Source: Eucommia ulmoides | Taxonomy: Eukaryota > Streptophyta > Magnoliopsida > Garryales > Eucommiaceae | Length of the DNA stretch: 64,000 bases | Assembly (NCBI GenBank): GCA_016647705.1 | Contig: CM028333.1 | Coordinates: forward strand, 26,096,243 to 26,160,242 | Reading direction: 5' to 3' | In this document: positions 15,601 through 58,999 of the stretch, one piece after another | How positions within the stretch are numbered: the stretch's first letter is position 1 | How the letters are laid out: each line of letters starts with the position of its first letter | The notes under the pieces: generated by a model | Database searches by the model: none | Told to the model about the DNA's origin: nothing | What the model saw: only the letters and a program-made list of their open reading frames with translations | Translations under genes and position numbers: made by a program

Positions 15601-18600
15601 TTTCTATCACTAGTATCGGAACATTAATTGAGTTTGAATTTATCTGGGGTGGTAGAAGCTCCAAGTGGGAAAATCACTTATCAATTGTTTATAATTGGTG
15701 AGTTGAGTGTCGAATTAGATACTACTAGAAATGTCTAATCAATGGTAGTTGGTTTCAATCTCTTCCAGTAAAGAGATTGAGGTTTTGATCTTTGCCTAGA
15801 GTACAAAAATGTTAGGTTACTCTTTTTCCTTGAAAAGAACTTAGATGTGATTCTTCCTGATTAGGATTAATTGCAAGTGAATTGTAAATGTTTCATCCTT
15901 ACTTGGAAAAATGATACTTGAAGTAATTGTAAGGTTTGATTCTTAGCCTAAGGTATAAAATAATTAGGTTTGATCCTTAGCCTGTAAAAGGATTAGGCTA
16001 ATGTTTAGCCTGTAATATAAGGTTATTCTTGAGCCTCGGAAAAATAAGAGGTTATTCCTGAATCTCGGAAAAAGAATTTGTAAAAGTTGATTCTGAACCT
16101 ATGAAAAAAATCATTATATAAAGGTTTGGTTCCTACCTATTTAAAATAATTCTAGTTATTAGTGAGTGAGAATCTCCGTGGGACTCGGAGGACTAAATTA
16201 GTCAAAAATAGCTTGGTGAACCAAGATATATCATGGTGTGTTGTTTTATTTACTTTACTTATATATTGTTGTTTGGTGTACACCTAGTTGATAACACATA
16301 TCCGCTACTATAAAGATAATAATTAAATTTAAGATAAAATTAATTGTTTGATTTTTTGAAGTATTATATTCTGATAATTTTTAATACTACCTAATGAGCA
16401 TATTTTTATATTTCATTACTCTACTAAAATTAAGCACGTTTTCTTTTAATTACGATTCAGTTTTCTCTTTCTCATTATTCAAATAAATCATTTTAAAGAA
16501 AGGTCATGAAAAAACGTCTTACGTTGAAATGACAAAAATATATTTGTTAGAAGGCCACGTGTTGTGCATGGTCCCCCTTTCATGGCAAATATCAAGGTTT
16601 ACTTAGACATCCACCCCTTACTTTAAGGACCAAAAATATAATTTTCCCTTTAAAATAATGAAAAATTAAAATCAGAATTTTTATTTTGAAAAATCTGAAT
16701 CAAATTAATTAAAAAAATCAGATTGAACCCAAACCATCTACAACAAACGCAAGCCAATTTTAGTTCTAACAATTTCAAGCTTGAATCAGCCTTCAATTTC
16801 AGATCTGACAATTTTAGGCCAATTTCAGATCCAACCCAACACCATCTTCTTCCTATCTTTCTACAACAAACGCATGCGAATTTCAGATCCAAAAATTGCA
16901 GTTTTAAGTTCTGAGAAATTCAGATTTAGGATTTGGAGACTTGAGGGTTGATGTTGGGCGACGGTGGTTCTGCAAGTTCGCGTTGATTCAGTGAGTGGCG
17001 ATGAAGATGGAGATTGTAGATTTGGGTTTCAAACTAGGGACAATATTGGTGTTCGTGGGTGGCTATGGTGGGTTCAATGGATTGGGTATTAGATCTGGAG
17101 TGAGTAAATATTTGTAGAGAGAGAAAGAAGAACTACCACCGTAAGGATGCATTGGACAGGTAACAAGCAACGACGACGAAGATGGAGTGCAATTGACAAC
17201 AACGACAAAGAAGGTTGCTCAAACGATGGATTTGTCAACTACTCTTAGAATATAGATTTCTAAATGACACCTATTTTAAAAAAATTCATAAATGATATTT
17301 CATCTTTTATTTTTTAGATGAAGAGATTTTACAAATTCAAAGAAGAATTTATTAGAGAGGAAACTTGACGCCCATTGACAATCATGCCCATATTTGAAAT
17401 CTTGATGGAAAATAATTTGTATTTTATTATTGGCGACCGAAAAATAAATGATAATAATGATGGCAATGTAATAGTAATAATAATAGCATCCAAGACGACA
17501 GAAATAATTTGGTGCTGAGTATGATAACAACAATAAATAAATAAATAATATATTTGTAGGATATTTTAAAGAAACTCAAGTACTAAAAATATTAAAAATT
17601 TAGAAAAATAGCTAATAATTGCAATAGTGGATTTAATCAAATAGGACATAATTCCAAATTTACTCTGAATATCAAGATAATGAATTTTTCTTAATATTTT
17701 TGTTATAAATAGTATTTTCTTAAATATTTTTTATTGGGTTTATAGCCTATGTTAATTTATTTTATGAAAATAAAATTAATTTTAATTAAAAAAATTCACT
17801 TCCACCTCCTTTATGTTCCACAAAAATAATATTCATTTAAACGTATGAGTTTAAATATTTTCGTTGCTAAGGAAAAAGGCAAGATATTAAAGAAGAGTAT
17901 CAAATGTGATGTTAAAATCAAACTTGGAAAATAACAAAAAAAAATACTAAAATATTAAAGTACAATGAATTTCAAATAATTTCTTTGACTAAATCATTTC
18001 GAATATTTATAATTGAAACTATAAGTACAATGTGATTTTCATCTGCTGATATCCTATTTACAGTTTAGAAATTTAATTTTTTTTTGTTAGAAGTCCAAAA
18101 TTATTACAATAAGTAATATGTTATGTCTAGATTTATTTATTTATTTTTACAAATGTTTGGGAGAAAGAATTTTGAACAGACAATACACTAAATGACTATT
18201 AATTTTGGATATGATAATAAAAAAATCACTGTAAATTATTACTGGAGTTATCACAAAAACTAAAATTCAGTGAATAGTGGACCAAAATCCTAAATCATAT
18301 ACCATATACAAAATCAAAACTAAAAATGAACCATAAATCAAAATAAGACATATTTTCAATCTCTTTTTTCTTATCAAATTAATGGTCAAAATTTTCTCTC
18401 TTACTATTAATATTATGAACCTAGATTTTCTATAAACTAATCACTCCTAATTTTTTTAAAATATTCATTTTTGCCCCTTTATTTTAAGATAAATCAATTA
18501 CAATCTTTAAATTTTTATATACTCTTCCTCTACTTTATATAAATTTCAAGTCAACTCCTAAAAAAAAAAAAATTATCCTTCAAAAAATATTTCATGTTTT

Positions 18601-30379: not shown

Positions 30380-33300
30380 CTACTCATGTAATCGATTGAC
30401 ATGTGCAAAAGGAGTTCGATTTGGCAATGCCAATTGTTGTTGTTGCTGCTGAATCTTGCTCTCCGTACCCCAGTTTGGTCTATTCTCGCAAGTAGACAAC
30501 AATGTTCTCATCTCTTCGATGGATGCCAAGCTAGGAACTCGTATTGCTCGGTTCTCATGAATCATATTCGTATGCGGATCGACCTGTTAAATCAAAGGCA
30601 TCAAATGAAGAATTCAAATAAAATGAGTGTTAAATTAATGGCATTGGCAGTTAAAAGTAACATGTCGACGATAGTTTCTAATATTTTTTTCTCGTATTTC
30701 TGCTTGGTGTTTTTGTTTCAGATTTCAGGTTTTGTTCCCAAAAAACTTTTAAATGAGGGTGAAATCTGGGAAGTATTCTGTTCTATTTACAAAAATTTGT
30801 TTTAAAAATCTGATAGTTGAAACATTTTTTTTGGACCTATTTTTCCATTTCTGTTCCCACTTTACTAGGAACCGAAACACTAAGGTGACGTTTGGTAACC
30901 GTTTCTGTTTCCATTTCAGTAGTGGAATGGAAATGGGATGAAAAGGGATGAAAATTTTGTCTCCTTCTTGGGAGTAGAATCGAGTTTGTTAACGATAATT
31001 TTTTTTTTTTGTTTTGGGAAGAGAATCGCGTTTGGTAACGATTTTATCCTTAAAAAAAAGAAAAAAAAAATAAAAAATTAAGATTTTTTTTTCTTGTTTT
31101 GGACGAACGGCGGCGGCGACGATGACCGGCGGGTGGGTGACGGTGGCTGCGGGTGGGCAACGGCGATGGTGGCAGCGGCGACAGTGACCGTCGGGGTGGT
31201 GACGGTGGCGGACGGCCGAAGGTGACTGGCGACGGTCACCGGAGATGGCCGTCGGACGGCAGCGGCTAACGGTGAACGACGACCGGCGGATAACGGTGGC
31301 GGTGGATGAAAAGTAACAGATATTGGGAATGGAATGGGAATAATGAGAAACAATTTTTTTTGTTTCTCATTTCTTAAGAAAAAAAATGGGCACAATTCCC
31401 AAATGAGAATGGAATGGGAACGAGAACAAAAATTATCAAACGCTATTTCCAAACAGAATTTCCAAAAATCTGGGAATGGAATGAGAATTTTTGGAATGGA
31501 AACAGTTACCAAACGGGCCCTAAACAAACAGGGTCTGCCTTATTGAGCATGCAGTTCAACCAAAAATAGAGAAAAGCCATGTGTATATTAATTAAGTCAG
31601 CTCACCAAGTAATCATTTTTGAGGCAGTGATAGGCTGTCTTTTGAATCTCTGAGATGCCTTCACCATGGTTTTGTTGTGCAGACTTAAGTTGGTCGGAGC
31701 TGGTGGTGCACATAGACTCTATTTCCTTCTTATTCTCATGATCCAACACAAGAGAATCTGTTAAAAAAAAAGAAGGGATTTTTCCAAGTTATATGGTTCC
31801 TATGGATTGACATGGCAGAAGAAAATATGTTCTTGATTGTAGGAGTTTTAGAACACCTTTAACAGAAGTCAATAGATCGCGAGTTTGGGCTCCAAATTCT
31901 ACATCCATTGATGAGCAAGCAGAGAAGAATTCATGATATCTGGTGTGATTTGCACCAATCTTTTGCCTGACAAATAGAAACAGATCAATAGACATAATAT
32001 TGGTAGATATAAATCAGGGAACAGTATGTTCTCTGGGAACAGAAACACTAAGGCCCTGTTTGGAGACTCTTTCAGTTCCCTGATTTTTGTTCCCGCTCCT
32101 AAAATTTTAGGATTAATGTTCAAAAGCGCATTTGGTAAACACGGTTTTGTTCCCAAAAATTTGGGGAGTATTTCCTCGATTCCTTAAGAATCTGAGAAAC
32201 AAAAAATGTTGATTGCTATTCACTCCCACCACTCAGCTGCTGCTGCCGCCACCACCACCATCACGTTGACTAAGAAATATGTATATTTATTGTGATATAT
32301 TAAAAGGAAAAAAAAAAGGACAATGTTGTAACCAAATGTATTTCTTTGCTTCTGTTCTCATAAATTAAAAGAAACAATTTCAATACAATGGTCGTGACTG
32401 AACATGTTTCTATTCTTGGAATACTCTTGAACATAAATAGAATTCTCATCCCAATTTGTTGGATGTAGAAACACTAACAAAACGCCACCTAAACAAACGC
32501 CAACTAAGAGAATTAGAAGCCAAAAAAATGAAGGCGAACTTACTTGACAGAAGATTCAATCTCCACAATACTGCTCTTGTTTAGACGGCTGATCGATAAT
32601 TGTGCATCATCCCACTGCTGCCTCGAATTATACACCTTATTTGCACTGCTTATTTCAAAACCCATTCGACTTTTAGTTTTCTTTACAGATGAGCTTTTTA
32701 TTATTTATTTTTTTGGCGCCATCTGGTGTTATAAACACATGATATAAACTCATCTTTACGGATGAGTTTTTACATTTCTTTTAATTATTATTTTTTTATT
32801 TATTATTTTGCACCATCTAGTGTATAAACACATGATATAAAAAGATTACCAATCCTGGAGGTAATTTTCCATCATAACTCTGCTTCCGGCTAATGCGAAT
32901 GTGTCCTCCATGAAATGAGTTTTGAGATTCTCTAAGTATCCATTCACATCGTTAGTTGCACCTGCCGAAACTTGCTTCATATTCGATAGCTCTTGCATCA
33001 ATTTCCTGTTCTCTTGATTACTTGACTCCTGAATTTTCCTTGTGGCTTCAGACACCTGAGAGAGACAGTCCAAAATAACGTTACGATAGCTACGCTGACC
33101 ATTAATCAGCCAAAATACATAGAATCCCATGGCCAAGCCACATGCGTATCCGAACCCACTGAATTTCTAATTTTTTAATTTTTGTTTTGGTTTTACGCAT
33201 TATGTATATTTCAGGAATTTCAATCAATTGAAAGTATTGATCCCAGCGAAATATCAAAAATTACAAAGATTCAACCGACTAGGGTCAAATTCGAATTCTT

Positions 33301-36040: not shown

Positions 36041-38919
36041 GGGGGGGGGGGGAAGGGGATTCAACACTATGCACATTTGTGGTTGAGAAACCCATGAGAG
36101 AATACATGACATATGAGCATCTACCCACCTTCTTTTCAGCCTCATCCTGCATGAATCTCTCATGTGGAATATAGACACCATTTTTCTCTCTTGCTGCTCG
36201 AACATCTGCATTGGATTTAACATAGTTATTGACCTATTAATCTGACTCAAGTATGAAGGTAAAATAAAAAAAAATAAAAAAAAGGCAGGCTTAGCTTCAA
36301 ACCTTGCTTCATTCTCTCTATTTCCACGTATAGATCCTTGAGCAGCACAGCTTTTGATATTTTTTGATTTGCCTGCCAAAAGTAAGCTTTTATTCAGATC
36401 AAAAGAAATATATGATTGATATCAAATGAGCTCCACCTTGAGCTTGTAAATCCGAAAAGAAATAGGCACACACAAACCTCCGGCTTGTTTTTAATGTTTT
36501 TAGCACGATATGCATAATCTAGCGTACTCAAAGTTTCTTCGAGACAATGAGCAGATGGAGAAATTGTTGCAATAATGCAAGTTTTCGTTTTTCCTCCTAA
36601 GGAGTCTCTCAGTAGTCTAGTTAGTTTGCTATCCCTGCATATCAAAGATAAGAGGATGACATCAGGAGAAAATGCTAAATCCACTTAAGAAATTTCAGGT
36701 TTAAACTCATATACCAATGTCACAAACCTGTAGGGGACATGAACAGAATGTTCCACAAGTGCATTAATAACACGGCCTAGGGTAAGTAAGCTCTTGTTAA
36801 TCTCCCCAGCTTCTCTTGCTCGACCCTGTATATATATCATATCGTTCCTAAATAAGTTGGTGCTTCAAAATGTCAATATAGATGAAAAATACTAAATTTA
36901 AGAATATCTCCTCCAAAAATTATCAATATCCATGCAATTAAACAAATATTTCTCAATAAATAAATAAGATATATGTCGGGTATTGTTTAATAGGAAAGTA
37001 CTTTATACCTCTCGAGCACCAGAACGAGAGATATTTTCTGATCCTGCCAAATCTACAAGATTAAGCTTGCCGCATTTGATTAGCTCCTCGTCACCAAGAG
37101 CTGCCTCTTTTACATAGACAGTTATGGTAAACACAGAATGGGAACGGCTGCAACATAAAATTTTCAATTAGACACTAATACTACAATTTTCAAAGTTAAT
37201 GCTTACTTCCAGTAAAGATAGTCTCCACCTGCTGCGCTTGTTTAAAAGGGTGTCAGCTGTACGCCTTTTAGCTGCTCCTCTTTCCAGGAGATTATAAATT
37301 TCATTAGCACTGTACACAGCCTCTTCTTCAAGCCCTCTTAGAATTACAGAACCTTTCCCATCCTCCATTAAAGATATAGACTTCTTTTGCTTCTCATCCA
37401 AGGATCTTGAGTAGTCTTCTTGAGCCAGCAAATCAGTGATTTCTTCATTATAAAGCTCCAGAAAGGTCACTTTCATACTGTAGTCGGCATTTTGCGCCTC
37501 TAGTGTATCGAAAATGTGTCGAACCGATCTTGGAATAACACCTGCCTCGGCAGGCAATTCACCCCCCTATAGCACATGATATTTAAAAATAAATTTAGGG
37601 CAATTCTTAGAGCAATCCTAATTTCACACTATTTTTACAATTGTATCCCAAGGTCTTTTTATCAATTTGTAGTCCTCTTCATCATTATAGTTGATTTTAA
37701 CTTAAAAAACTAGTTGATTTTAATTAAAATCACTAAACAATATTTTAGTTACAAAGGCGGCAGCTGGTGGCGGTGATCTAGCGGTACTGTGGCGGTGGCT
37801 GGCAGTACTGTGACAGTGATTCACTTCATAACACTAATTAGTAGTATTTAATTACAATCAACTAAAACACTAAAACATGACCACAAATTAAGTCTAAAAA
37901 TTCATGGGACATACATTAGATGTGCAGTGTAAAAAAGGACATGGAATTAATTTACCCCAAATTTTAAGCAATAAGGAAAAGAAGTGATATTGTAGTTCAG
38001 GAAACGAAGAAAATAGGAAAATCAATCCAAATAATACCTTGTTTCTCATCCCACCCTCCATCGTATATGTCTTGCCAGTACCAGTCTGCCCATATGCAAA
38101 AACAGTGCAGTTGAAGCCCTCAAGAACTTCATTGACAATTGGGGAAATTGCTTGATCATATATTGATCTTTGTTGTGATTTGGGCCCAAAAACCTTAAAA
38201 CATATTTAAGAAAAAAGGAAGCCCATATTATGCCATCTTATGCATTGAAGAACATCATTTGCTGGAATAATCACAAAAGGAAAAGCAGCATACCTTGTCG
38301 AACATAAAGGCTTTATCAACTTGCTTGTTCGCTACACTTTGCAAAATGGTAACTTCTCTTTTATGCTCATTACACGTTACCACCCTCGGCACATTTGATC
38401 GTTGTTCATCGTCATTCAACGGCCTAAAATTTGAAATTGAAATGGACATAAATAAGTTCGATTTCAATTTAGTTTCAAGCGAACTTGAGAATTCCGTTCA
38501 CAAATTCGCCTTAATCTGAAACAGTTTTAACAACAAACATAATTTGGGCCATCAATCATGTGCCACTGTAACTTAAATTTCAGTGTGTTCGTACTGCTGA
38601 ACTTCATTTTCTGAAAATCATAAAATTAATTCAACTATCCATGTGGCAATTTTGCATAGGTCAATGTAAGCAGAACTCTGCATGTGTATACATAGTAAAA
38701 CCCTAATGAAGAAATAAGAATGGGGCGAAAGAAAACGCACCTGCATCTAAGAAGAACTTGGACGTTGGCCTCTCCTCGGTCCTTTTCTTGCCGGTTCAAG
38801 TTCCGATCGGCTCCTCTGGAATCCGGCCGCCGCCTTTCGGGTCTGGGCGTGAGAAATGGTGCTGGAGATGGCGTCATCCCCAATGTGACTTTCCTAAATT
38901 GATCCGGAGTCAACGACAT
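30380..38919 (-). CDS. KIN-5: Kinesin-5 (KIN-5/KRP125) mitotic motor, 23 exons
   Basis: Plus-end microtubule motor that as a homotetramer cross-links and slides antiparallel spindle and phragmoplast microtubules. Exons: 38919-38741, 38423-38294, 38193-38038, 37566-37229, 37147-37009, 36825-36728, 36634-36478, 36372-36303, 36205-36129, 35367-35314, 35228-35148, 35035-34924, 34814-34728, 34534-34359, 34273-34112, 33977-33870, 33793-33635, 33530-33447, 33055-32850, 32669-32544, 31966-31857, 31757-31606, 30583-30380. They total 3165 nt, 1054 aa plus stop, with GT-AG introns and matching phases. P-loop GQTGTGKT at residues 138-145, switch I SSRSHS at about 267-272, switch [10 protein letters not shown] at 298-305, motor end IKNKPE at about 399, then a long coiled-coil stalk. 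The tail has [13 protein letters not shown] and [11 protein letters not shown], conserved in plant members. Length is normal. Intron 17 has a weak donor (AAG|GTCATC). Its introns host MITEs and a TRIM. No defect seen. Confidence 0.93.
30884..31520. mobile_element. Tourist-like MITE in KIN-5 intron 22
   Basis: Begins GGTGACGTTTGGTAAC and ends GTTACCAAACGGGCCC, flanked by TAA on both sides (30881-30883 and 31521-31523). Subterminal 'ggaatggaaatggga' stretches recur at both ends. The centre (about 31100-31310) is a GC-rich GGC/GACGG repeat that gives a long Pro/Ser/Arg-rich frame on the minus strand, which is not a real gene. Confidence 0.75.
32052..32489. mobile_element. Tourist-like MITE in KIN-5 intron 20
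   Basis: Begins GGCCCTGTTTGGAGAC and ends AACAAAACGCCACC, flanked by TAA (32049-32051 and 32490-32492). The TIR is imperfect. The 'tctcattcc/gttcc'-type interior resembles the intron 22 MITE, so the two are probably one superfamily. Confidence 0.6.
35608..35755. repeat. Direct duplication of about 50 bp in KIN-5 intron 9
   Basis: 'aaataaatccaaacatccg' through 'atctcctaggaa' occurs at about 35608-35658 and again at about 35699-35750 with one obvious difference. The second copy abuts the TRIM fragment. Confidence 0.85.
35756..36075 (-). mobile_element. TRIM fragment in KIN-5 intron 9
   Basis: Minus-strand copy of the same TRIM family as 28437-30175. The LTR reads TGTTGAATCCCACATTGC from about 35887 downward, and the primer-binding site TGGTATCAGAGCC (initiator-Met tRNA complement) is at about 35758-35770. 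Above the LTR lie a G-rich purine tract and part of an internal domain (to about 35970). It ends in long C, T and G homopolymers (about 35973-36052). Fossil fragment, non-coding. Confidence 0.7.
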
Positions 38920-39192
38920 CACTTCTTCGTTTTCTCTCTCGAAATCAACCTACAACAGAATTCCAGAAATCGAATGATTAGACATGTAAAATTGATCTAT
39001 AGACAATAGCAGATGGGTAGTAAAGAGGTCTGAATTTTAACCTGGTTAATACTTGATGAGATCGAACGGAACTCTAGAAAATGATCAGAAAAATGCGGAG
39101 GAGGAGGATCGGGATACAAGAATTTCTCGTTTGTCTGTGTTTGTGCAGTGAGGTCGAAAATGGTCGTCGGAGTGAACGAGCAGAGTGATTTT

Positions 39193-43750: not shown

Positions 43751-46485
43751 GTTGCTGCAAACAGGCTGGAAGGCGCTCGTCTCCATCTCTAGTATGATGG
43801 AGGGCTACTTATCTCCGCCTTTGAGTTGCATGCTCACAATTGGCCACTACTCGAATGCCGTGATGTTGAGAGAGTGGCGGGTAGGCGCCTGGCCCTGCCC
43901 ACAATGGGCCCTCAGGTTGGACCTTACTGCGTGGCTGGGAAGCTGAGCCCAAGGGTAGCCCTAGTCAGTCCCTGGCATCATGTCTTCGTGGAGAACGGGG
44001 TCTTGACGTGGTCGGGGGGCTCTCTAGTCCGGTAGCCCTAGTATGGCAAAGTGGAGGGCGGCCCTCGGGCACAAGCCCATTTGAAGATTCCACACGAGCA
44101 TCGTGATCTTGGGGTCACTCCTAGGGCCTTGCAGTCTAGAGAGACGGTTCCCCCTAGACGAGGGTTAGTAGTAGGCACGCGAGGAGGAGTTGTACATTCG
44201 ACTTGAACTCTTGCATTTGGCGTTCAAGGAGATCAACCCGAGATGCCTCCATAGCTCTTGAGGTCTGTCCCACAGCCCCAGGTGGCAGAGTTGATGGTCT
44301 TGCCTGACCATGGGGGGGCAGTTATCCTCGTTGGTGGGAGTTGGGGGGTATACGCTTGGATTGTTCGACATGTCTTCTTATTCTTCTGTTTTGTGTCTAT
44401 CTAACTGGACCTTGTGATTACTCAAGCTCAGCTGAGCAGAGAGCAATGATCAGGGAAAGGATTTTTGCTCGGTTCCCACAGACGGTGCCAAACTGTTGAT
44501 GCATAAAACTGGTACACACCTCGAGTATAGTCCAGTCGGATGACAGGTGGGTCCTCTTGCTGAGGTGGAGTCGTCGGTCGAAAAGTCCTCACGTGAGCTG
44601 TGCTGGGTCCTGGGAGGACTGACCTACTATGTCTAGAGTCCTTCTCCTCAGAGAGTGTACCTGCAAAAGACTCAGATCGGGGTTTATCCCAGTGAAGCTC
44701 CTCCGGCGTGGTAATCAGCGCTTAGAGAGAAAAATGTACAGAATATAGCAAGTAAACAAATAAACTCGCGCGTAATGTAAGTCATTAAAGCGTACCTCAA
44801 GCTTACATAGCCCCTGATATATATAGGCATTGGAGATGATTAGTCGGGTCTAAACACGGTTAAGTAGTCGAAACCTTGTGTTTAGCCGATAATCCAAGGT
44901 GTTTAGGAGATAATCGTTGGGCTTGGACTTTTGGGCCAATTTGGCGAAGCCCACGAGCCTTTGTCAGGCCTGCAGCGGTAAGATGGTGGAGGAGAGTAGA
45001 GATCCGTGGAGTCCTGGAGAAGAAATAAGGTGAAAAGGGGAGCCGGTCGAGGTGAATGGCTAAGTCCCTAAAACTGACTACCCAGAGCACGGCGCAGAGC
45101 TCAGAGGGACACGTCCCAGCAGGGCTCCTCGCTCCTCCTTGGATGCAATGAGGTTCCAGGGAGGAGTTGTGGTACGCGTATGCTTCAGTGTGGCATTTGT
45201 GGATTTCAGAACGTGTCCCTGTCATTACAACGACGGACACGTGACTGGGTCCCAAGTGCTGACTCGGAGAAACCCAAAAATACCCTCATCAATATATATT
45301 ATAGATATAATTTTTTGGACGTTTATTTAGTACTAGTATTTTCCGATTTAAAAAAAATGGAGTTAAAAGATTAATAAAAAATTATATTTCTGTCATATTA
45401 TAAAATTTAAATTGAATGACACATTGATTGGAACACACAATTTTATTAATTTTTAAATATGGGGTTTGTTTAGAGCTTTTCGTTTGTATTTCTGTTTTCA
45501 ATTTAAAAAAAAAAAAAATAATAGAAACAAAAAGCGTAACACTGAGACTAGCTATCATTTTAAATATAACTCTGATACCTTTCATCATTCGCTAAAAGTA
45601 ACATTAGGATTTTTATTGGACTTTTTTTAGTCAATTAAACTAATGTCAACAATTTTTTGACCAATAGAAATTTATTACGGGACAGTTACCAAAGAATTCT
45701 CCTAAGAGAATAAAATTACTGAATACATATGTTTTAAGCACATATTACAAAATAGTTATTTTATCTTTTTGAGATAATTTTACCCCTCCGCACATTGGAA
45801 TATAATACGATCTCGTGTTATATTCAACACGAGTTTGTGTTGAATATAATACAATTTCGTATTACATTTAATACGATATTGTGTTGAATATAACATGAGA
45901 TCGTGTTATATTTAACTTTCATCGCCGTTCAACTCTACTAAGTTGTCGCCGACTGGACCACCACCCATTCGACCTTATAAATAAATCAGTTTCTGAAACA
46001 ATAGAAGAGAAATTTAAGTTCTGCAATCCCTAAGGAGGTTAAACAAAAGAAGAGAAATTCGATTTCCAAACCCTAAATGAATTCATATATTATCAAAATA
46101 CCATGAACAACTTTCAAATTCAGCATACCAATTTTCTCAACAGATAACTAAATCACAAAATAATCAATCAGCAGAAATAACAAGAGAAATTCGCCATTCT
46201 TCCATATCAAACAATATGACAACTACACATATGCGCTGACACACACGCATTTGAGTGGTGTTTTCACGTGTTGAATATAATACGACATCAAACAACAATT
46301 TGGAAATCGAAAAGCTCGACAAATTATCAAAATTAGGTAAAACCCAGTCGAATGTCTCAGTTTCCTTGTTAGCTTCAGACACAAAATTCCCATTCGATAA
46401 TGGCTGTTGATTGGAGTTAGTTGTCGTCTTTGAACTTTCGAAATATAGCCTTCGTTTTACATGTTCCCTCTTGCTTAGCCTCTTC

Positions 46486-47010
46486 ATGTTCCACAAGTGC
46501 ATTAATAACACGGCCCAAGATAAGTAAGATCTTGTTAATCTCTCCCATCTTCTCTCGTTCGACCCTGTTTAAATATCATAATGTTCCTAAATAAGTTGGT
46601 GCTTCAAAATGTCAATATAGATGAAAAATACTAAATTTAAGAATATACTGAAAGGTCATAAAGACATCAAAGACTTCCATTGAATTACTTTGTAAGCTTT
46701 TTATAGTTAATAAATCACACTGCAGTTCTCCTACAAAAATTATGAATATCCATGCAATTAAAGAAATATTTCTCAATAAATAAATAAGAAGATATATATC
46801 AGGTACTGTTTAATAGGAAAAATACTTTATACCTCTCAAGCACCGAAACAAAAGATATTTTATGATCCCGCCAAATATACAAGATTAAGCTTTTCGCATT
46901 TCATTAGATCCTCGTCACCAAGAGTTGCCTCTTTTACGAAGACAATTATGGCAAACACAAAATGAGAACAACTGCAACATAAAATTTTCAATTAGACACT
47001 AATACTACAA
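46486..47010 (-). pseudogene. Kinesin-5 fragment (exons 5-6 with intron)
   Basis: Matches the KIN-5 gene at 36748-37186 almost line by line. It includes all but the last ~20 bp of exon 6 (36748-36825), the whole of intron 5 and all of exon 5, plus about 40 bp of intron 4. The intron match ('aataagttggtgcttcaaaatgt' and onward) shows a DNA-level copy, not a processed transcript. An extra roughly 80-90-bp stretch absent from the parent lies at about 46655-46735. Substitutions are scattered through the exons and the fragment lacks a start, P-loop and stalk, so it cannot make a motor. It lies in the same orientation as the parent, about 9.3 kb away. Confidence 0.9.
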
Positions 47011-49379
47011 AACAAGATCTCAAATTGCATTTCATTTTATTCAACATAAAATTGCTAATCCGTGTTGTTGAATTCAAGATTTTGATGAACAATTAAGTAT
47101 TTATATTTTTTGTGGAACTAATGGTTTTATCAAATGTTTCAGATTTATAGTTCAACACATGTGATTAAGAAGAAGACCTCATAAAAAAAATATAAAAAGT
47201 GCAAGATGGATGTAATGAAGATGTGAAGAGTTTTGAAGATCTTGAAGAAAAATAAGTGGAAACAACTATCTACTTATATAGTCTTAATGCAACTAGAATT
47301 AAAATCACACACGACACTTAAAATGAGTTTGATAAGAAATGATAAGTTTAAAATTCTAAAATTAGATATTATTTGTGCTCCTTATCCTAAAATTAGATAT
47401 GATTTGTGCTCCTTATGTGAAATGAATTTGATGATTGACCTAACTGGAAAACATATTTTAAAGTATAAAAAGTTAAGTTTTCATGTCAATTCTGTCAACC
47501 AAGAAAAGTAATCGGTCAACTGAATTAAACAGTGTGTTTTGGAGTTAAAATGAATTGCTACTGATCCAGACGGTAACTGAATGAAATTGGTCGGTCAACT
47601 GTTTGAAATAGTAATTGAATTGACGAAGGAAGTGAGCACATTGATCCAATCAGTCAACCGAATGAAGATGGGCGGTCAATTGTTTGAGTCAACAAATGAA
47701 TTGGTAGAAAAATGGATCACACTAATCCAATCAGTCAACCGATTAGATGTGATCGGTCAACCGACTAGCCTTAAGCCAACGGTTATATTTGGAGCAGGAC
47801 AAGTCGGTTAACCGACCTATAGGATTCGGTCAACTGACTGAGTCAGTTGAGATTTCGGGTGATTTGGTCTCTTGGTAAAAAACTATCTATTTTTTGTGAT
47901 TCCAAGAGAGAGATTTTGGAGACTTGAACTTAATTGAACTATTAACAACCTATTATATTATCTCTATTGATATGGTCCATATATTTTGAGATTTTCCTAA
48001 TTTAAATAGTTTAATACTTCCTAGTTCTATGGTGTTAAAGTGAGAATAGTTTTATTGAATTAAGTGAGAAAATTGAAAGTTATTTTTAAGTAAAATACAT
48101 CTGAAATGAAATGTTATCATATATAGGGTTTAAGAGTGTCATTAAATGGCATATCTTTGAGAAACTAGCCGTTGGATGGCTAGTTATTGGTCTATTAATA
48201 TAGACCTACGAGAATTGAGTTGAGTACATAAAAAATAATTAGTTAAAGTTTTTCTAAGAGTGAGATTTACACTAAGATTTTTACGTGAGATTCTATTCAA
48301 GTTTTTTTTATCTAAGGTGCTAATTGTTTGGCATCACCAATTTGGGTTCTAATTGCAATTGAATCATTGTCTTCGGTGTTTTCCCGGTAAGATCCTTCCA
48401 AGTTTTATTGATTTCTTTAAGTTATATTTATCTTGATTACTTAGTTTAGGATTGATAGAAAAATCGTTTTTGAACTTAAAAGTCTGAAAATCTTTTTAAG
48501 AGATTTTTGCCTGTTTATCTGATTACGTGCTAAATTTGTGCTACCCAAATTATTTATTAATCAAATTTGAATTGCCTTACATTATATTTATCACATAATA
48601 ATTCTTAGGGACATTAATTGAGTATATTCGTATTGAGGTGATAGAAACTCCTTGTGGGAAGAAACCTGTATTTTTTGTATTTGTGAGTTTGAGTGGATTA
48701 GACACGTTTGGGACAGTGTTTATTCAGGGTAGTTAGGTTTTGATATTTTTCATGTAAAAAACAATTAGGGTTTGATCTTTATCCTGATAAAAAAATTAAG
48801 TTATTATTTTCCCTTGAAAAAAAAATTAAGTTTTGATTCATTTTGTAATTGAATTATTTTTTAGTGATTTGTAAAAGTTTATCATTCCTTGTGAAAAGGA
48901 TAAGTGAGAGAGAGTTAGATTTTTCTTTAACTTAGTAAAAAGACTGGGTTCATCCTTGACCCGTAAAAAGGGTAAATTGTAAAGGTTGATTTTGTGCCTG
49001 TAACAAAATCGTGAGTTGTAGGGTTTGGTTCCTACCTGATAAAAGAATCAGGGGTTTAGTGGATTACGAATTTTCATGGAACTCGAGGGACTGGACGTAG
49101 ATAAGATTAGCATGACAGAATCAGAATAAATTCTTGTGTGTTGTATTGATTTATTTTTTATCTTGTGTTTGAGTGTGCATTTATTATTAAACACATATCT
49201 TTTACGTATAAAAATAATAATGTATTGAAGAAAATTGATTATTTGTGTTTAAAGGAATTAATTGTTTAAATTTGATAGCTATTAATTCACCCTCTCTTGG
49301 ATATCTCTTTGGCTCAATAATTGGCAACAGAGCTGGTTTTAACTCGTTAGACTTCACATCCTAACTAAACACGTTCACA

Positions 49380-50230
49380 TGGAGTGCATTGATAATGATA
49401 TTGCATGTGAATTCTCTACTTGTCTTGATACTATTAGTGAATCTCTTACTTGCTCTGATAATCAGGGTCCCGTTAGTGAGAATGATAAACATTGTGATAA
49501 TGAGGTTGCAAATAAGGCTATTGAGATGCTAATTGTTCTTACCTATGTTTTTGCGGAATTTTTTTTTTTTTGAAACTTGGGCAAAAGATTGCGATTCTTG
49601 AAAATAAAAAATTTAGTATCACTAAATCTTTTAAGAAGAAGAATTTAGACAAGAATTTTGAAACTGCTAAATTTTTAAATTCTTTATCTGAAATTGGTAA
49701 GTTGCTTGAAAAAATCGATTCTCATGAAGAATAGAACGAAGTTTTGAAAAATAATATTTATGATTTTTAGCAAAGTGATTATAAAAAGAAGAATCTTGAA
49801 ACTTTAATTGAGGCCTTAGACATTGAGTTAAATAATATAAGGTGTGAGCTTGATAGAGCTCATTTGAAAATTCATTCTGTCGAAAATGATTGCTGAATTC
49901 TTAAGAATGATTTTGAATTTATGCATAAAAAAAAATTTGGTCTACAGGTAAACATTAGTTCGTTAGAGAGATCACTTGATACAACTCAAAAGGAGCTTAA
50001 CGAAGCAGTGGATAAATTCAAGGATATTAAGAGCACTAAACTTGTTGAAAAATTAATAATTGCTAAAGCAGCTCTTCAATATTACCATCAATATCGTTCT
50101 CCTGTACAAAATAATGATTATCCGAAGGAATGTGCTAACAATGTTAAATGTTTTTATTGTGGAACGCATGGTTATTTTGAGAAAATGTGTTATTTATTGC
50201 ATGGTTACCCGGTCGGATCCAAGAAATAAC
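49380..50230 (+). pseudogene. gag-like region of the pol-less LTR element
   Basis: Part of the element at 47066-57697. Charged, coiled-coil-like sequence is followed by the zinc knuckle CFYCGTHGYFEKMCYLLHGYP-type motif at about 50150-50200, spacing C-X2-C-X4-H-X4-C, characteristic of retroelement nucleocapsid. Fossil, frame not continuous. Confidence 0.6.
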
Positions 50231-51512
50231 TGGATACCAAGGAGAGAAAATTTTTATGTAGGTACAAATGGGAGATTTGATTAATCAAGAACGTACAATG
50301 AATGTTACATGCCAAGAAGGAATTTCAGATTCAATACACTAATGAGGATGAATCAAAATATGCAAAATGGAAAGTTCGAAAAGCAGCTAGTTCAATACAT
50401 GAAATCAATTGATACTTATCTTCAAAGAATGACGAGAAACCAATATCAGAAGACAACGTATAAGGTGGTGACAAAGTAAAATGAGGGAAAACAGATCAAA
50501 GCACCTTATAATGGAAAGAAGATCATTATTGAACCAATTCAGAAGAAAGTCGTTGTGCATAAGGAAGAAATCAAAATGGTAAATCAAGCAAAAGAAAAAA
50601 TGACGGATTCAAAGGACAACAAGCTTAAAATTAAAAATCCACCAAAAGTACACACACCAACTGCTCCCAAGCACAAACCAGGTATGTCAAATTTCCTGAA
50701 AATCAATTATGTTAATTTTATTAGGGAGACCGATGCTTCGTATTTTTCAAATTTGTTTATTTGTGACATGTGTGAATGTATGTGAAAATATTTTAAATAA
50801 TATGTGTGGATCAAAATATGAGATAAAAATGAAACAAATAGATCAAATAGGTCAAGATGGCACTTAAGGATGAAATTATCTTGTCTGTCAACCGAGAAGA
50901 ACTATCAGTCAACCGACAGAAACAGAGCCTGCAAAGTGCAGACTCTGCTCTGGTCGGTTAACCGACTGTTACGGGATTAATATCCCTTTTAGCATTCATT
51001 TCACTTCCATTTCGAATTCCTTCTTTCTCTCTCTAGAAATACTTCACTGCCTAAGAGAGTTCCTTCCAAATTTACAAGAGAACTTCAAATATTGACTTGG
51101 ATTAGAAGATTGTGGGCTCGAATCTATCATTTTGAAGAAAAAATTTCATCAAAAGGTTGGTCTTTCATCTCTACTTTAGGGTTTCAATAGATTTACTTTT
51201 TAGGCTTCATCCTCTTAAGTTTTTTTTTATCTTTAATCACTTGTTGAAAATCATTGTTGATAGAAAATACCTAGAGGTAGAGTAAAACAATCATGCTCGG
51301 GAAAACATAAGTTTGACACCATTCACTTTCAAAGTAAAGAAGATGGAGAAATATACAAAAATGAAACCAAGAGTCGAAAAGTTGTTTGTTCTAAACCTGT
51401 TGATTTTTTCGCCCTCAAAAAGAAGAACATTGATCTTGAAAAGTATGTCAAGAAGATGGCGTGGACCAATTTTCTTACACAATGTAATGAGTGAATGCCA
51501 CATTAGGTAAAA

Positions 51513-51950
51513 ATGTTTTACAATAATCTTACGATTGGTAAAGGAGAGTTGAGGTCGTTTGTTAAAGGTGTTGAAAATAAATTAGTTATGGAAGATCTTA
51601 GGAAAATTTTGAAGTTCAAAAAGGGAGATGTTCGTCCTTATAATACCACCTTATGGATTGTCGGACATCTTAAGAGAAGTGAGGTTGTGAATAAATTTAA
51701 TTTGATTGATAGAAGAGCTGAGTCATTATCACTTGAACACCATCTCATTCATTCAATAATCACTCATTCTATTGTACCTAGAGGAGGGAGTCAAGCGAGC
51801 GTCAATGAGTTTGATTTGTATTTACTGAATAAGATTGTCAATGGTAGAAATATTGATTTGGCCCATATCATGTTTGAGCTCATGGAATATCAAGTAAAGA
51901 AAACATCAAGAGTACTACCCTATGGTGATGCGCTTCAAAAAAATCTTTGA
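51513..51950 (+). pseudogene. 'Putative plant transposon protein' domain-like ORF
   Basis: A 145-codon frame inside the LTR element, downstream of gag. The run HSIVPRGGSQASVNEFDLYL followed by VNGRNIDLAHIMF resembles the domain often annotated in plant genomes as 'putative plant transposon protein', found in many pol-less LTR elements. Function unknown. Family recognition is from memory and was not searched. Confidence 0.5.
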
Positions 51951-53929
51951 CCATTTCAAAATTGATAGCAATTCTGAAGAAAATGCACTTCTCACGATAA
52001 CCCCAGGATGGTTAAATGTGAATAGTTGTTATTTTATGGGGGTTGAGTTCCAAAGAAATAGATAGGTGAAGAAAATAGGGGAGAGAGAGAAAAAAAAATG
52101 ATTGAGGGTGTAGAAGAAAATGAGAAAGAGTTTAGCACAGATCATAAAATCGATATGCTTCGGAATTAATTTGATAACTTCAAACAATACACTGAGATGT
52201 TTGATTCCAGAGTGTTCGGGATATCAAACGATATAGCAGAGATGAGAGTGTCCATAGAAGGCGGATATGGAAGGCTGACTGATACAATGGAAGTTGGGTT
52301 CGGAAGACTCACGAGCAACATGGAACAAATGTTCCTATTCATGCAGAACCAGCAATATAGTACTCAGCAGCAATTCAATGGTCAGCAGCAGTACGGTGCT
52401 AAGCAATAGTACAGTAGACAGACTTCTTTCGGGGACATCAGTCCTTTGAAGAACCTTCGGCAGCAGGACCTTCGAGGGCAGAACCATCCACATCGTATTA
52501 TCAGCAAATGTCTTCTAGATCAGGCATACAACCCGGAGGTGAATACCCACAGCCACCAGTCCATTGGGACCATATTATTCATTCATGGGATAAGGTCCCC
52601 ATTAGAATTTATGCAATATCGTATTTTGGTTATGTAATTGAACATGTCTCATCATAGTACCATGGTCTGTAATAGTTAATTTAGAAATTATGGTACTTGA
52701 TCTAGACTTGATAGGATTAAGTGGTAATTAGTCTAATTTGGTGAATTATTATCTAGTAATAATCTTTTATGCATTAATGTTTATTTCTTATGATGATCCA
52801 CATATATCCTAAAATTGAAAATGGTTTTAATTCTTATTGTTGAAAATCAAGGTTTTATGATCTTTTAAAGAGGAGTTCTTATAAGAATTTTTATCAAAGG
52901 GAATAAAGGCTAACTTAATTGTGCCCCCACTTTTTGAGATGACAAAGGAGGAAAAGCTAATGTTTAATAAGTTAGTTCATGTTTAGGGATTTGTTCGCCT
53001 AAGCATTGCATTGATTACAGGAAGAAGTTATTATGGGGCTTAATGTTGAATATCATTATTGATTAGTTGGATCCATATTGAATATCTTTATTGTTTGCTT
53101 ATGTTTTCATGTTTATACTAAAATGAGTTTAAATACCCGTCTCCAGTTTTAAGGGGAGTGTGGTTACATTTTTTAATAAAGAAAACATTGAAGTTAATTG
53201 TCATCATAAAAAATAGGGAGATTGTTGAATCAAAGGTTTTGATGAACAATTAAGTATTGATGTATTTTATGGAACTAATGGTTTTATCAAGTGTTTCATA
53301 TTTGTAATTTCATGCATGTAATTAAGAAGATGACCTATGAAGAAAACATAAATGGTGTAAGATGGATGTAATGAAGATGTGAAGAGTTTTAAAGACCTTT
53401 TAAGAAAAATAGGTGAAACCAACTCTCTACTTATATATTTTTAATGCAACCTGAATTAGGATCACACACGACATTTAAAATGAGTTAATTATATGTGTGT
53501 CATGATGGGAAATGATAAGTTTAAACTCCTAAAATGAGATATTGTTTGTGCTCCTTATATGAAATAAATTTGATAATTGATCTAATTGGAAAATATGTTT
53601 TAAAGTATAAAAAGTTAAATTTTCGAATCAATTCGGTTAATCGAGAAAAACAATCGATCAACTGAATCAAACTGTGTTTTGAAGTTAAAATGAGGTGTTA
53701 CTGATCTAATTGGTTAATCGAATAAAATTGGTCGGTCAACCGTTTGAAACAATAGCTGAATTGGTGAAAGAAGTGAGCACACTGATCGAATTGGTCAACC
53801 GAATGTAGAGGGTCGATCAACTATTGGAGTCAGTAGAGAAATTGATGAAAAAATAGATCACACAGATCCAATCGGTCAACCCATTGGATGTAATCGGTCA
53901 ACCGAGTGGGACTAACATTTTTATGAAGT

Positions 53930-56163
53930 GTTTCAGTTTAAAGAGTTCCAATCAAGATAATATTATGAAGGATGTAGAGACGGAAATTAAAGAGATTGAA
54001 GATTTTGAAGAATTTAGGTGAAAACAACTCAAATCATTTTTACTCTTAATGTAACGTGATTAGAATCACACACGACACAAATTAAAATGATTTATATTTA
54101 TGTGTGTTTATATTAAGGACCTAATTTAGTTCAAATATTTGCTCCAATTTGAAATTGAAAAAGAAAACTTAACTTAAGCAAGATTAGTGTTTAAAATTTA
54201 TTATTAGTGTCAATTTAGTTAATCGAGAAAAGAAATCGGTTAAAGGTCTGAAAATGTCAAAGTTTGGAGTTGAAATATATTGAGAGGGATATTGTTCCAG
54301 CAATGATCGATCAACCGACCACATGGTTCGATCAATTGATGGGCAAGGGCAGAAAAATTGAGAGTCTCTAAATCGATCGGTTAACCGACCAAGGGAGATC
54401 AGTCCATTGATAGCCGAAAGCTAAACTCCCAATATCGATCGGTCAATCGACCAGGGCCGAAAATAAGCCTGAGATAGCATTCTGTATTGATCGGTCAACC
54501 GATCTACTAGGGATCGTCAACCGACCATTGCTTGAGCAAAGGTTGGGATACATCTTGTATCCATCGATCGACTGATGGGCAGAGGTTGGTCAACTGACTA
54601 AGCTGTTTTAGATTTTGAGGATTTTCGGGATTTGATCAAAACTAGTCGTTACTAGCTTTTTTTTAGCAAATCTTTTGGAGATATCTTAGGGATTTGAATA
54701 TATTGATAATATATTACTCCTATTTGGATATCCCTATAGATGTGGTACATAAAATATTGGTATTTCTTAATTTAGTTCATTTAATATTTCCTATCTATTT
54801 ATTTGGAGATTGAGAATTAATTTAGGGATTTAATTGAATATTTTCAAAGTCATATTTAAGTGAATTGAACCAAGATTAAATGGTATTGATATATGAGGTC
54901 TATATGTGCATTTAATTGTCATATCTTGTAGAAACTAACCGTTAGAGGACCTATTTCAAATTAATTTAAATAAACCTGCATTTTTTTTAGATCAATACAT
55001 TACTTCCATCAAGAACTAATTGTTCCTGAGCTTTTTAAGAGTCATTATTTTGATATTTTCTTGAGAGATTATTGTGAGATCATTTTGTGAGAAAAGAACT
55101 TGAGAAATAGCGCTAAATGTTTTGGCATCATCGATTTAAGCTGTTTTGCGATTCATATTCAATCTTTCGGTGGTTATCCTAGTCAGATCGTCCCAAGTTT
55201 TTGTTCTTAATTGTGATTTTATATTATTATTTCATGCTTGGATATAAGATCTTTGTGAAATCGTTTTTGAACTTTAAAGAGTATAAAAATTATTTTAAAA
55301 CGATTTTTGTGACAATCTGATTACGTGCTTATTTTTATGCTACTCATATCTATTATAATCAGATTTTGAATTTCTCACATAAAATTCTATCATTAGTAAA
55401 TTCAGGACATTAATCGAGTTAAATTGATTTGAGGAGGTAGAAGCTCCAAGTGAGAAAAAAATCTCTAATTCTTGTAATTGGTGAGTTTGTGAGGATTAAA
55501 TACTATTGGGAGTATCTAGTCAAGGGTAGCTTCAGTTTCGATCTCTTCTGGTAAAGAGATTGAGGTTTAATATTTATTTATTATATAAAAAGGTTGGGTT
55601 ACTATTTTCCCTTGAAAATAGTTAGGCTTGATTCTTCTTGATTAGAATTAAATTTGAGTGATTTGTAATGTTTCCATCCTTACTGGTGAAAAGGATATTT
55701 AGAGTGTTTTGTGAGGTTTGATTCTTAGCCTAGTAAAAGAATTATGTTAGTCTTTAGCCTAAAAAAGATAAGGTTCTTCCTTATTTTGTGAAAAGAGAAA
55801 TGTAAATGTTGATTCTAAGCCTGTAAAAGAACCATTATGTAAAAGTTTGGTTCCTACCTGTTAAAAGAATCTAGTGGTTTAGTGGGTGTGAATCTTTGTG
55901 AGGTTCGGAAGATTAGATTAGCCAAGAGTAGCTTAGTGAACCAGTTTATATCCTTGTGTGCTGTATTTTTACTTTATCTATTTTCTATTGTTTGGGTGTG
56001 CACCTAGAATAAGTAAGATTTATTCGCTGCATTATAAAATTAATAATTAATTTATGATTAAATTAATTATTTGATTATTTAAGTGTTAAAAAATAATAAT
56101 TTGCTTAAATTTTTTATAACTACCCAATTCACCCCCCTTTTAGATAGATCACTGGGCCAACAA
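53930..56163 (+). mobile_element. Second LTR nested in the 3' LTR at 53-57 kb
   Basis: Follows the LTR at 14123 in order and ends ...GGGCCAACA at 56163, after which the outer LTR resumes ('tcttgattacttg', compare 48431). It belongs to a sister subfamily ('B') of the host LTR ('A', 47066-49319). It contains many TCGGTCAACCGA-like motifs (about 54300-54610). Fossil solo LTR. Confidence 0.65.
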
Positions 56164-56888
56164 TCTTGATTACTTGATTTAAGATTGTTAGAAAAATCGA
56201 TTTTGAACTTAAAAGACAAAAAATCTTTTTAAGCGATTTTTGCCTATTTATTTGATTACATGTTAAATTGGTGCTAGGCATATTATTTATTAATCTGATT
56301 TGAATCGTCTCATATTATATCTATCACGTAATAATTATTTGAGACCTTAATTGAGTATATTCGTATTGAGCTGGTATAAACTCCTTGTGGGAAGAAACTT
56401 GTATTTTTTGTATTTGTAAGTTTGAGTAGATCATACATGTTTGGGACTGTGTATAGTCAAGATAGTTAGGTTTGGATCTTTTTCCTAGGAAAAATATTAG
56501 GGTTTGATCTTTGTCTTGCTAAAAAATGTTAGGTTATTCTTTTCTTATGAAAAGAATTATTTTTGAGTGATTTGTAAGGGTTCATCCTTCCTTGTGAAAA
56601 TGATAAATGAGAGAAAGTTAAGTTTTTTCTTTAACTTGGTAAAAAGATAGGGTTTATCATTGACTAGTAAAAAGGGTAAATTATAAAGGTTGATTATGTG
56701 CCTGTAAAAAAATCATGAATTATAAGGGTTTACTTCCTACCTGGTAAATGAATCAGGGGTTTAGTGGATTACGAATCTCCGTGGTACTCAAGTGGTTAGA
56801 CATAGGCATGACTAACTTGACTGAACTAGAATAGATTATTGTATGTTGTATTGATTTATTTTCTATCTTGTGGTTTGGTGTACACTTA

Positions 56889-57557
56889 GGGTATGTTTGA
56901 TAAAAAAATTAAATGCTTAAAACTGATTATATTAAGTACTTAATTAATTAAATTTGTTTGATAAATGTAATTAGTATCACTTAATTACTTAAGTTAACTT
57001 AAAAATTAAATCAAAATGTGAATAAAAAATTAAGTCAAAGTCCCTTCACTTATTTTATTTTACTTAATGCACTCAATTATTTTTCATTTAAAAAAAATTA
57101 TATTTTGACTATTTTACTTTTGATTCCCTATTAGGGTTTAATTAGAATTAAGATTAATGAGAATTGAATTAATTTTGAATTATTTTATAATTTTAATTTC
57201 ATTTTATATTTAAATTATTGTTATAATTTAATTTAAGTAATTAAATTACATAAAAAAAATACATAATATTTACATATTTTTTGGTTAATTTCTATTTTTA
57301 ATTTTAATATAATTTTTTTTTTTTAAAATGGCACCCTGATTTTATTGTTTTGTTCTCAAATTTTTTTTTCACATTATCTTGATTTAAAAGTAGTTACGTA
57401 AATTAAATAATTTTCAGCATACAAATTTTGTACTTATCAAACAAATAAAAAAAAATCAGCACTTAAATTTTTAGCATAATTTTATCAAACAACCTTCTTA
57501 AATTTTCAGCACTTAAATTTTCAACACTTAAAAATTAAGTCGTTATCAAACAAGCCC
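56889..57557. mobile_element. Tourist-like MITE in the nested 3' LTR
   Basis: Begins GGGTATGTTTGATAA and ends TTATCAAACAAGCCC, a 15-bp inverted repeat with two mismatches, flanked by TTA on both sides (56886-56888 and 57558-57560). The 5' LTR of the same element lacks it at the equivalent position (about 49180), an empty-site comparison within the window. 669 bp, AT-rich, no coding capacity. It is younger than the LTR element. Confidence 0.85.
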
Positions 57558-58130
57558 TTAGTATTAAACACATATTCGTTACGTATAAAGATAATAATCT
57601 ATTTAGGAAAATTGATTATTTGTATTTAAAGAAATTAATTGTTTAAATTTGATAACTACTCAATTTAACCCTTCTTGGGTAGCTCTTTGGGCCAACACGT
57701 GTTATAATCAACATGATCTCATATTGATTATAATACGAGATCGTCTTATATTCCACTCACTGTCGTTCAACTCCACCAAGCTGCTACCGACTACACCACC
57801 ACCCATTGCATCTCACTAAAATAACCATACAATATAACTCGCCGCACCACCGACGAGAACATACCCTACCAAAATCAAATTCCATTAAATTCCAACATAG
57901 GACTTTCATCAAATATTGAAGAGTCGGCTTTGATAGTCAACATAGGAGCTTAGGCTGACTTTGACTCTGCGATCAAATCAAGTTCAAGCTCACCGATTTA
58001 GAGAAAGGGTCACCACTGCTGATCAAACTCCTCAGATCTCCATCCTCTCCGATTTGTCGAGATTTTAGATAAATCGATCGATCGAGAAACCCTAGAGGAG
58101 AAAGTAGTAAAAAGAGATGAGAAATAGAAC

Positions 58131-58740
58131 ATCATGGTCGCAATCCACAAGCTATAGCTCACTGACACTTATAAGCTTCCCAATTGCAAGAAAATTAGTA
58201 CCTTCTAAAGCACCAGTGGTGCTAAAGGACCAACATGATCCACATGAACCCTAAATTCCCAACACAAGAATCAACCATAAACAGGCAAAATCAATTTATA
58301 AGCAAAATAACAATCACGTTAGCAGAACATTAAATCAAGCGAAAAAGGCATCAATCCTAATAATTATTAGCATAATTAAGTATGAAGTTTATGTAATGGT
58401 TTGTTAATTTTCGGACCTAAGTCTTTACGGCCGTGACGACACCTTTCATTCTCCAATCGAAATTTGTGGGCAGATCATTAGTAAAGGATCAAAGCTTCTT
58501 TCACATCCTTGGGAAGACGGAGACGACGATTCAATCCTAGGAAGGTGTGACAAAACTCGGACGACGTCAGATCGGAGAATTGAGTGACGCCGTGCATAAC
58601 CGAATGATCGAGCTTTTGGTGGTGCCGGGCTCTACACATGTTAACCTTGAAGATCCCGAACTTGTACCGTCCAAAGCCATCCAGAAGTCGGCTTTGATCC
58701 GTACTATCGCAATGAAGCTATTGACACCATGACCACGGGG
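58131..58740 (-). pseudogene. RD19-like papain-family cysteine protease fragment
   Basis: On the minus strand, about 58700-58540 reads as the I29 propeptide (YKFGIFKVN, HGVTQFSDLTSSEF, FLGLNRRLRLPKDV). About 58480-58417 gives the mature N-terminus (NDLPTNFDWRMKGVVTAVK). A retained intron with GT and AG ends occupies 58416-58251. From 58250 to about 58133 comes [17 protein letters not shown] through LISVSE and a decayed QLVDCDH. The catalytic Cys motif is intact, but the fragment lacks the His and Asn part of the active site, the signal peptide and the C-terminal two thirds. Frame breaks occur between the propeptide and the mature start, at the donor (a stop where the family has NQ), and before LVDCDH. 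The intron shows a DNA-level capture. The plus-strand frame over 58547-58732 is a shadow. Confidence 0.85.
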
Positions 58741-58999
58741 TTCCGGGTGGGACTCATCTATGCAAATGGAGAGAGAAAAGAGAGATCAATTTTAATGTGG
58801 ATGGGTAAAATCGTCCACCAAAAAATTTAGGACTTTTTGGTAATAAATAACGCAAAATCGAGGGCTATTGTGAGAAAAAAAAAAACAAAAAAAACTTGTA
58901 GGTCATCTTGTAGATTTAGTATGTATCTAGACTTTTTGGTATTTTTCCCATTTATTATTCAGTTAGAGATATAGAAACTACAAAAAAATCTCACAAATA

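Follow-up and report, generated by a model that had tools for sequence, protein, structure and literature searches.

The window analysed here is a 64,000-nucleotide stretch of the Eucommia ulmoides genome (C9:26096243-26160242), and it contains a Mutator-like element at 45679-58949 as well as a resident kinesin-5 gene whose motor exons lie within 36397-38949. The element carries pieces of four host genes with identified donors, the kinesin-5 gene among them, and it is interrupted at 47066-57697 by a long terminal repeat (LTR) retroelement. The evidence set out below supports the view that 45679-58949 is an old Pack-MULE, a Mutator-like element (MULE) carrying host-gene fragments, that was split by the LTR element; its kind is known, and the record of how it gathered its contents is unusually readable.

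The element opens with a left terminal inverted repeat at 45679-45795 (plus strand), which includes the block TTTTACCC, and closes with a right one at 58790-58949 (minus strand). The tips, GGGACAGTTACCAAAGAAT from 45679 and GGGAAAAATACCAAAAAGT read on the complement from 58949, agree in 14 of their 19 positions, and a second block of the inverted repeat matches further in (ATTTTACCCCTCC.CACATT near 45778 and ATTTTACCCATCCACATT near 58797). The flanks form a 9-bp target duplication, ATTTATTAC at 45670-45678 and ATTTATTAT at 58950-58958, with a match of 8/9. An initial annotation, made from the letters alone, had proposed these boundaries, the 14/19 tips, the second block inside each end and the duplication with one mismatch; all of them hold, the coordinates to the base. 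The tip and flank match taken alone is not significant, with 246 pairs of positions in the window, 0.8-16 kb apart and the element included, passing 14/19 and 8/9, and a local alignment as good as that between the ends is obtained from 94 of 1976 random pairs, or from 86 when scored a second way. The window is A+T-rich (33% G+C, compared with 36% in the element). GG..CC termini occur in two of the 246 pairs, the element and a pair at 13965-16648; the latter is a candidate second Mutator-type element of a different family, with ends that are identical over their first 25 bp (GGGAAAATTATATTTTTGGTCCTTA) and 9-bp flanks that match at 8/9.

It is the family in the genome, through its sites and duplications, that gives the ends their significance, and not the features of the window. 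A 26-mer from the right end finds 158 genome sites at no more than three mismatches (a reversed control finds 0), the left part of the element matches at least 111 genome stretches and the right part at least 49. From 40 fetched regions and the window itself we obtained 24 two-ended copies, with 16 sequences lacking one end and one (L046) dropped as mis-projected; the search for other elements with the same ends, which the initial annotation had put forward as a check, thus succeeds. Duplications of 9 bp that match at 8/9 or better, with no shift at the mapped ends, flank nine of the 24 two-ended copies, and five of the 24 are perfect at 9/9; the respective expectations from 552 mispairings of the flanks are 0.35 and 0.04. 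One of the nine, L031, has a poly-A duplication. The left terminal repeat is present in 32 of 37 mapped sequences, and related family ends are ~117-160 bp long. Locus L063, a right-end variant with TAGTTA, was set aside, with only its first 65 bp matching well; over 2.5 kb, matches to the array and the blocks do not exceed chance, and open frames are no longer than 155 aa.

The kinesin-5 fragment (46486-47010, minus strand) spans, by our own exon reading, a complete exon, a portion of the following one and introns; it corresponds to 36748-37186 (minus strand) in the resident gene. Its Pfam kinesin matches, 0.0057 and 0.011, both fall below the cut-off; the joined motor exons of the resident gene have KIF11/Eg5 as their best PDB match (1.7e-83). 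The donor segment lies 8.5 kb upstream of the captured piece, in the same orientation and in the same window, where the initial annotation had missed it. A genome search with the kinesin piece, scoring best candidates only, returned four matches: one to the query piece, two within the resident gene and one to a stretch on C16. Next to it, the LisH-like fragment (46283-46488, minus strand) matches a coding exon of a C11 locus, L030, with 188/211 identity (donor open reading frame L030 4013-4681, minus strand). The LisH name is weak, the first exon of L030 matching at 0.011 with 15.9 bits, compared with a cut-off of 27.

Beyond the LTR element, the sequence at 57946-58103 (plus strand) is the 5' leader of a DUF716 gene from C15 (locus L056, 141/166 identity), whose open reading frame matches DUF716 at 5.8e-43. 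The last fragment, at about 58086-58666 (minus strand), derives from an RD19-type cysteine protease gene on C7 (locus L042) and comprises exon 2 with GSCGSCWSF, an intron and part of exon 1. It is identical to the donor at 451 of 589 positions with gaps, or at 432 of 496 ungapped sites over 58104-58666, and it matches Pfam C1 (4e-12) and I29 (2.4e-7); in the donor gene the N-terminus is hydrophobic, and both an I29 domain (2.7e-16) and the GSCGSCWSF exon are present. A C14 locus, L038, was rejected as the RD19 donor: its sequence stops at the breakpoint of the elements and most of exon 2 is missing from it, so it is read as a derivative. Its segment 4027-4411 is an RD19 pseudogene piece that stops at the same break base as the elements, with no ends detected.

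Of the four donors, then, kinesin-5 is linked to the element and the other three lie on C11, C15 and C7. The initial annotation had recognised intron-containing fragments of kinesin-5 and an RD19-like protease, and both now have donors; its further suggestion of possibly four captures is right, 46283-46488 and 57946-58103 having donors, although no donor was found for 45916-46266. This last stretch (plus strand), here called block X, is family-internal and common to L019-L029 and L031-L033.

The LTR element (TGTTG...CAACA) has its 5' LTR from 47066 and its 3' LTR from 53223, and it is flanked by a 5-bp duplication, CGTGT, at 47061-47065 and 57698-57702. Two LTRs with TG...CA termini and a 5-bp duplication identify an LTR retrotransposon. 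Reverse transcriptase was not found in the eight scanned of 14 plus-strand internal frames of at least 60 aa, and the only Pfam match in those eight is Transposase_32 (1.7e-8, below its cut-off). The 3' LTR (53223-57697) is ~2.2 kb longer than the 5' LTR, owing to nested inserted stretches. An empty site exists on C16, where copy L020 runs continuously across the target with a single CGTAT; the earlier picture of a Pack-MULE split by an LTR element with a perfect CGTGT duplication is thereby borne out.

The blocks of the element are arranged in an order that can be read against its relatives. In family members the left repeat is followed by a subterminal palindromic array with a 22-bp period, here at 45796-45915 (plus strand), and in the window a short array copy also sits at the joint between X and LisH (46267-46289, plus strand). 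The array precedes six of nine LisH starts (L022, L024, L025, L029, L031 and L034) and was undetected in that test for the window, L020 and L052. After the kinesin end at 47010 comes a 53-bp joint (47011-47063, plus strand), common to L020, which by eye looks like decayed array. On the far side of the LTR element lie an internal copy of the left-end array (57698-57755, plus strand; 74-82% to parts of 45796-45969) and block Y (57753-57945, plus strand), the start of which comes after the left array elsewhere in the family. The direct repeat so formed, 45796-45969 and 57698-57807, is distinct from the inner inverted-repeat block and marks the site of a fusion.

The array stands directly before 28 of the 30 listed Y starts, and upstream of these 28 we find the left repeat in 18, X in four (317, 305, 167 and 166 bases long), kinesin plus the 53-bp joint in two (the window and L020) and nothing identified in four. 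Because array-then-Y is the normal left subterminal layout, the inner array and Y of the window are best read as an internal remnant of a left end. Two family layouts are joined here, one running left end-array-X-array-LisH and the other array-Y-DUF716-RD19-right end, with the kinesin-5 piece between them, and the window copy is best read as a fusion of two family members around that piece. The array itself may have caused the joining. Neighbouring captures also overlap at their joints, LisH and kinesin by ATG, and DUF716 and RD19 by AGGAGAAA, which looks long for chance.

Several relatives retain parts of this arrangement. Copy L020 on C16 has the order X, LisH, kinesin 37127-37186, 53-bp joint, array, Y, DUF716 and RD19, and it keeps the left tip and the same right breakpoint of the kinesin capture as the window copy. 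In L019 (C11, 1.84 kb) and L021 (C6), which run left end-array-X-array-Y-RD19, the matches listed include neither LisH nor kinesin. L025 on C1 has X-array-LisH followed by a neighbouring piece of the same kinesin-5 gene (37299-37646, 37952-38020 and 38091-38174) and an insertion of its own, a ~640-bp repeat. Capture of spliced cDNA in L025 was considered, since gaps in its alignment to the donor hinted at lost introns, and rejected, the 305-bp gap lying by our exon reading inside an intron that is kept on both sides; the ~305 bp of kinesin-5 intron absent from this C1 copy, 37647-37951 in the window, are probably a later insertion in the donor. The ~640-bp repeat occurs beside the kinesin gene at 30875-31521 and interrupts the kinesin piece at L025 1942-2587, and parts of it are found in L028, L032 and L040.

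Captures in other members were sought with Pfam on eight frames, chosen from 1360 six-frame stretches of at least 30 aa in 36 elements. L029 and L031 combine the LisH piece with a fragment of a TCP-1 chaperonin (4e-5 and 1.1e-6, each short of the cut-off) and with DUF716 sequence; in L031 the joined chaperonin and LisH pieces form one open frame. The LisH piece ends at the same donor base, within 5 bases, in L025, L029, L031 and L052, and three different sequences follow it.

The assignment to class follows from the ends, the flanks and the contents. MULEs make target duplications of 8-11 bp, and the element has a 9-bp duplication, long inverted repeats throughout its family, host fragments with separate donors and no transposase of its own. 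Within the element parts, stop-free frames reach 134 aa at most (46167-46568), and this longest one gave no Pfam hit; no transposase of the element's own turned up among the frames scanned, which took in some of the short ones. An unlinked donor, a usual and non-defining trait of Pack-MULEs, is not seen for kinesin-5. CACTA elements have CACTA-type termini and a 3-bp duplication, whereas the ends here begin GGG... and the duplication is 9 bp, so this is no Pack-CACTA element; nor do the ends and flanks of 45679-58949 fit Helitrons, which have TC...CTRR ends, no target duplication and no inverted repeats. A MULE domain near L044 (C16:16461053) was discounted because it lies outside both the element and the fetched region. 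Of the 150 listed MULE domains, 18 belong to open frames of 757 aa, and 15 of these share one E-value (e.g. C3:5822339, C5:551321 and C6:36263679); this 757-aa family looks recently active and, among the domains listed, is unlinked to the family of the element.

Kimura two-parameter (K2P) distances between element and donor are 0.095 for kinesin (exon 0.143, intron 0.052), 0.117 for LisH, 0.104 for DUF716 and 0.144 for RD19. The proposal that the kinesin capture is much younger than that of RD19 was set aside, as the exon, intron and RD19 values do not settle it. The window copy differs from L020 by 0.151, from L019 by 0.159 and from L021 by 0.169. Summed over the four captures, donor-to-element C>T plus G>A changes affect 71 of 544 G/C sites, compared with T>C plus A>G at 23 of 753 A/T sites; the excess is strong in RD19 (36 vs 7) and kinesin (18 vs 7) and weak in LisH (9 vs 6) and DUF716 (8 vs 3). 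This pattern suggests past methylation, if the donors kept the old base.

The strongest clue to mechanism is the linkage. If insertion were uniform, a gene piece would come to lie within 10 kb of its donor by chance with a probability of ~2 in 100,000 (~20 kb in 947 Mb), or less than 1 in 10,000 when four donors are allowed for. Because close linkage is so unlikely by chance, the capture, or a short hop after capture, happened at the C9 site, and the capture itself probably took place beside the kinesin-5 donor. We favour, at a probability of roughly 0.7, the reading that a composite Pack-MULE, belonging to a Mutator-like family in Eucommia, captured kinesin DNA locally by template switching, was copied to C16 and then received the LTR insertion. 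A family member resident beside the kinesin-5 gene would have suffered a break or a stalled fork, and repair would have copied 0.4 kb of the neighbouring gene by template switching. Joints with a second family member may have formed at the array or at short matching sequence. The composite would then have been copied to C16, methylated and mutated, the window copy receiving the LTR retroelement later; transposition would need a transposase supplied in trans. Template switching fits because the tract contains introns, the joints show matches and the same gene was sampled a second time on C1. We offer a narrower version more tentatively, as possible: that the C9 copy sits at the birthplace of the capture, kinesin-5 DNA being copied repeatedly (36748-37186 here and on C16, 37299-38174 on C1) and the array serving as the recombination joint that assembled modules from different members.

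A number of observations weigh against this reconstruction. The 3-bp ATG overlap can be chance, and it is seen in one copy only, the LisH/kinesin joint being deleted in L020; L020 has also lost its right end, so that its own target duplication is unreadable. The kinesin breakpoints of L025 differ from those of the window copy, which implies a capture that was larger and then decayed, or one that happened twice. The LTR-LTR distance of 0.18 (K2P, 1353 sites of matched blocks) is slightly above the 0.151 between the window copy and L020, though the insertion must postdate that split; rate differences may explain the excess. In fifteen of the 24 two-ended copies the flanks of the mapped ends fall short of an 8/9 match, which we put down to age or slightly misplaced ends. 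Finally, Pack-MULEs are moved by a MURA-type transposase encoded by an element that shares their ends, and no transposase-coding family member was found: the right-end sites listed (100 of 158) are all more than 75 kb away from the MULE domains listed (150 of 2936 candidates).

The main rival is alternative transposition of neighbouring members, following the model in section 7 of PMC13317346 as for Pack-CACTA. Members flanking or within the 439 bp of kinesin-5 would have lost their inner ends, the right one in the first member and the left one in the second, and the hybrid would have travelled as a single unit and landed 8.5 kb away. This would yield the observed layout, the left half of one member, kinesin, and array, Y and right half of another, and a short hop would also account for the linkage. 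We nevertheless consider it unlikely: in L025 the LisH piece is truncated in another way and adjoins another kinesin segment (37299-38174), which needs further insertions at other positions, and the DUF716/RD19 joint at AGGAGAAA is not accounted for by the model alone. It is far less probable that the kinesin piece is a local duplication on or beside which the element landed, its linkage having nothing to do with capture. The 8.5-kb spacing and shared orientation would suit such a duplication, but L020 has the same right breakpoint in the same element layout, the piece lies inside the 9-bp duplicated flanks, and 2 kb of window flank on each side share only a 35-bp match with L020. Least credible of all is that chance ends surround an old patchwork of repeats that never moved as one unit, a view that could draw on the 246 pairs, the 94 of 1976 random alignments and the occurrence of repeats from the window flanks at other loci, and that the family evidence refutes through relatives that have both of these ends together with 9-bp duplications and through L019, where the shared blocks keep their order between the same ends in 1.84 kb.

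This one family brings together four identified donors, one of them linked, along with breakpoints that can be read, an LTR empty site, and copies that have or lack each piece, so that a single genome allows template switching to be tested against alternative transposition. The literature searched contained no paper pairing 'pack-mule' with 'eucommia'. The closest known counterparts are the Pack-MULEs of rice, reportedly described by Jiang et al. in 2004 (cited in PMC13317346 and PMC8277862). Like these, the Eucommia element has inverted repeats, a 9-bp duplication, intron-containing fragments drawn from several donors, many copies and no transposase that we could see; unlike them, it has one donor linked at 8.5 kb.

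In its discussion of Pack-MULEs, PMC8277862 treats the parents as unlinked and leaves the capture mechanism open, and the relevant sections of PMC13317346 likewise present the route of gene capture as still open. Rice and maize Pack-MULEs are described in passages of PMC3310237 as favouring GC-rich captures, in contrast to the 36% G+C of this element in a window of 33%. The tomato MULEs and Pack-MULEs covered there have internal or tandem inverted repeats, and those passages leave it open whether these arose by recombination or by acquisition; they resemble our element in carrying copies of end sequence inside; unlike them, it has inside only the subterminal array (plus Y), without the outermost repeat, between blocks from different donors. 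Pack-CACTA and Pack-TYPE capture, as outlined in section 7 of PMC13317346 (see also PMC8903248), likewise combines a left part, host DNA and the right part of another element, whereas the ends and 9-bp duplication in Eucommia are of Mutator type. The FoSTeST and gap-filling models for Pack-TIRs, in the account given in PMC8277862, share with our reconstruction template switching at short matches, FoSTeST then transposing the chimera; that account describes them for animals and calls their application to Pack-MULEs worth exploring.

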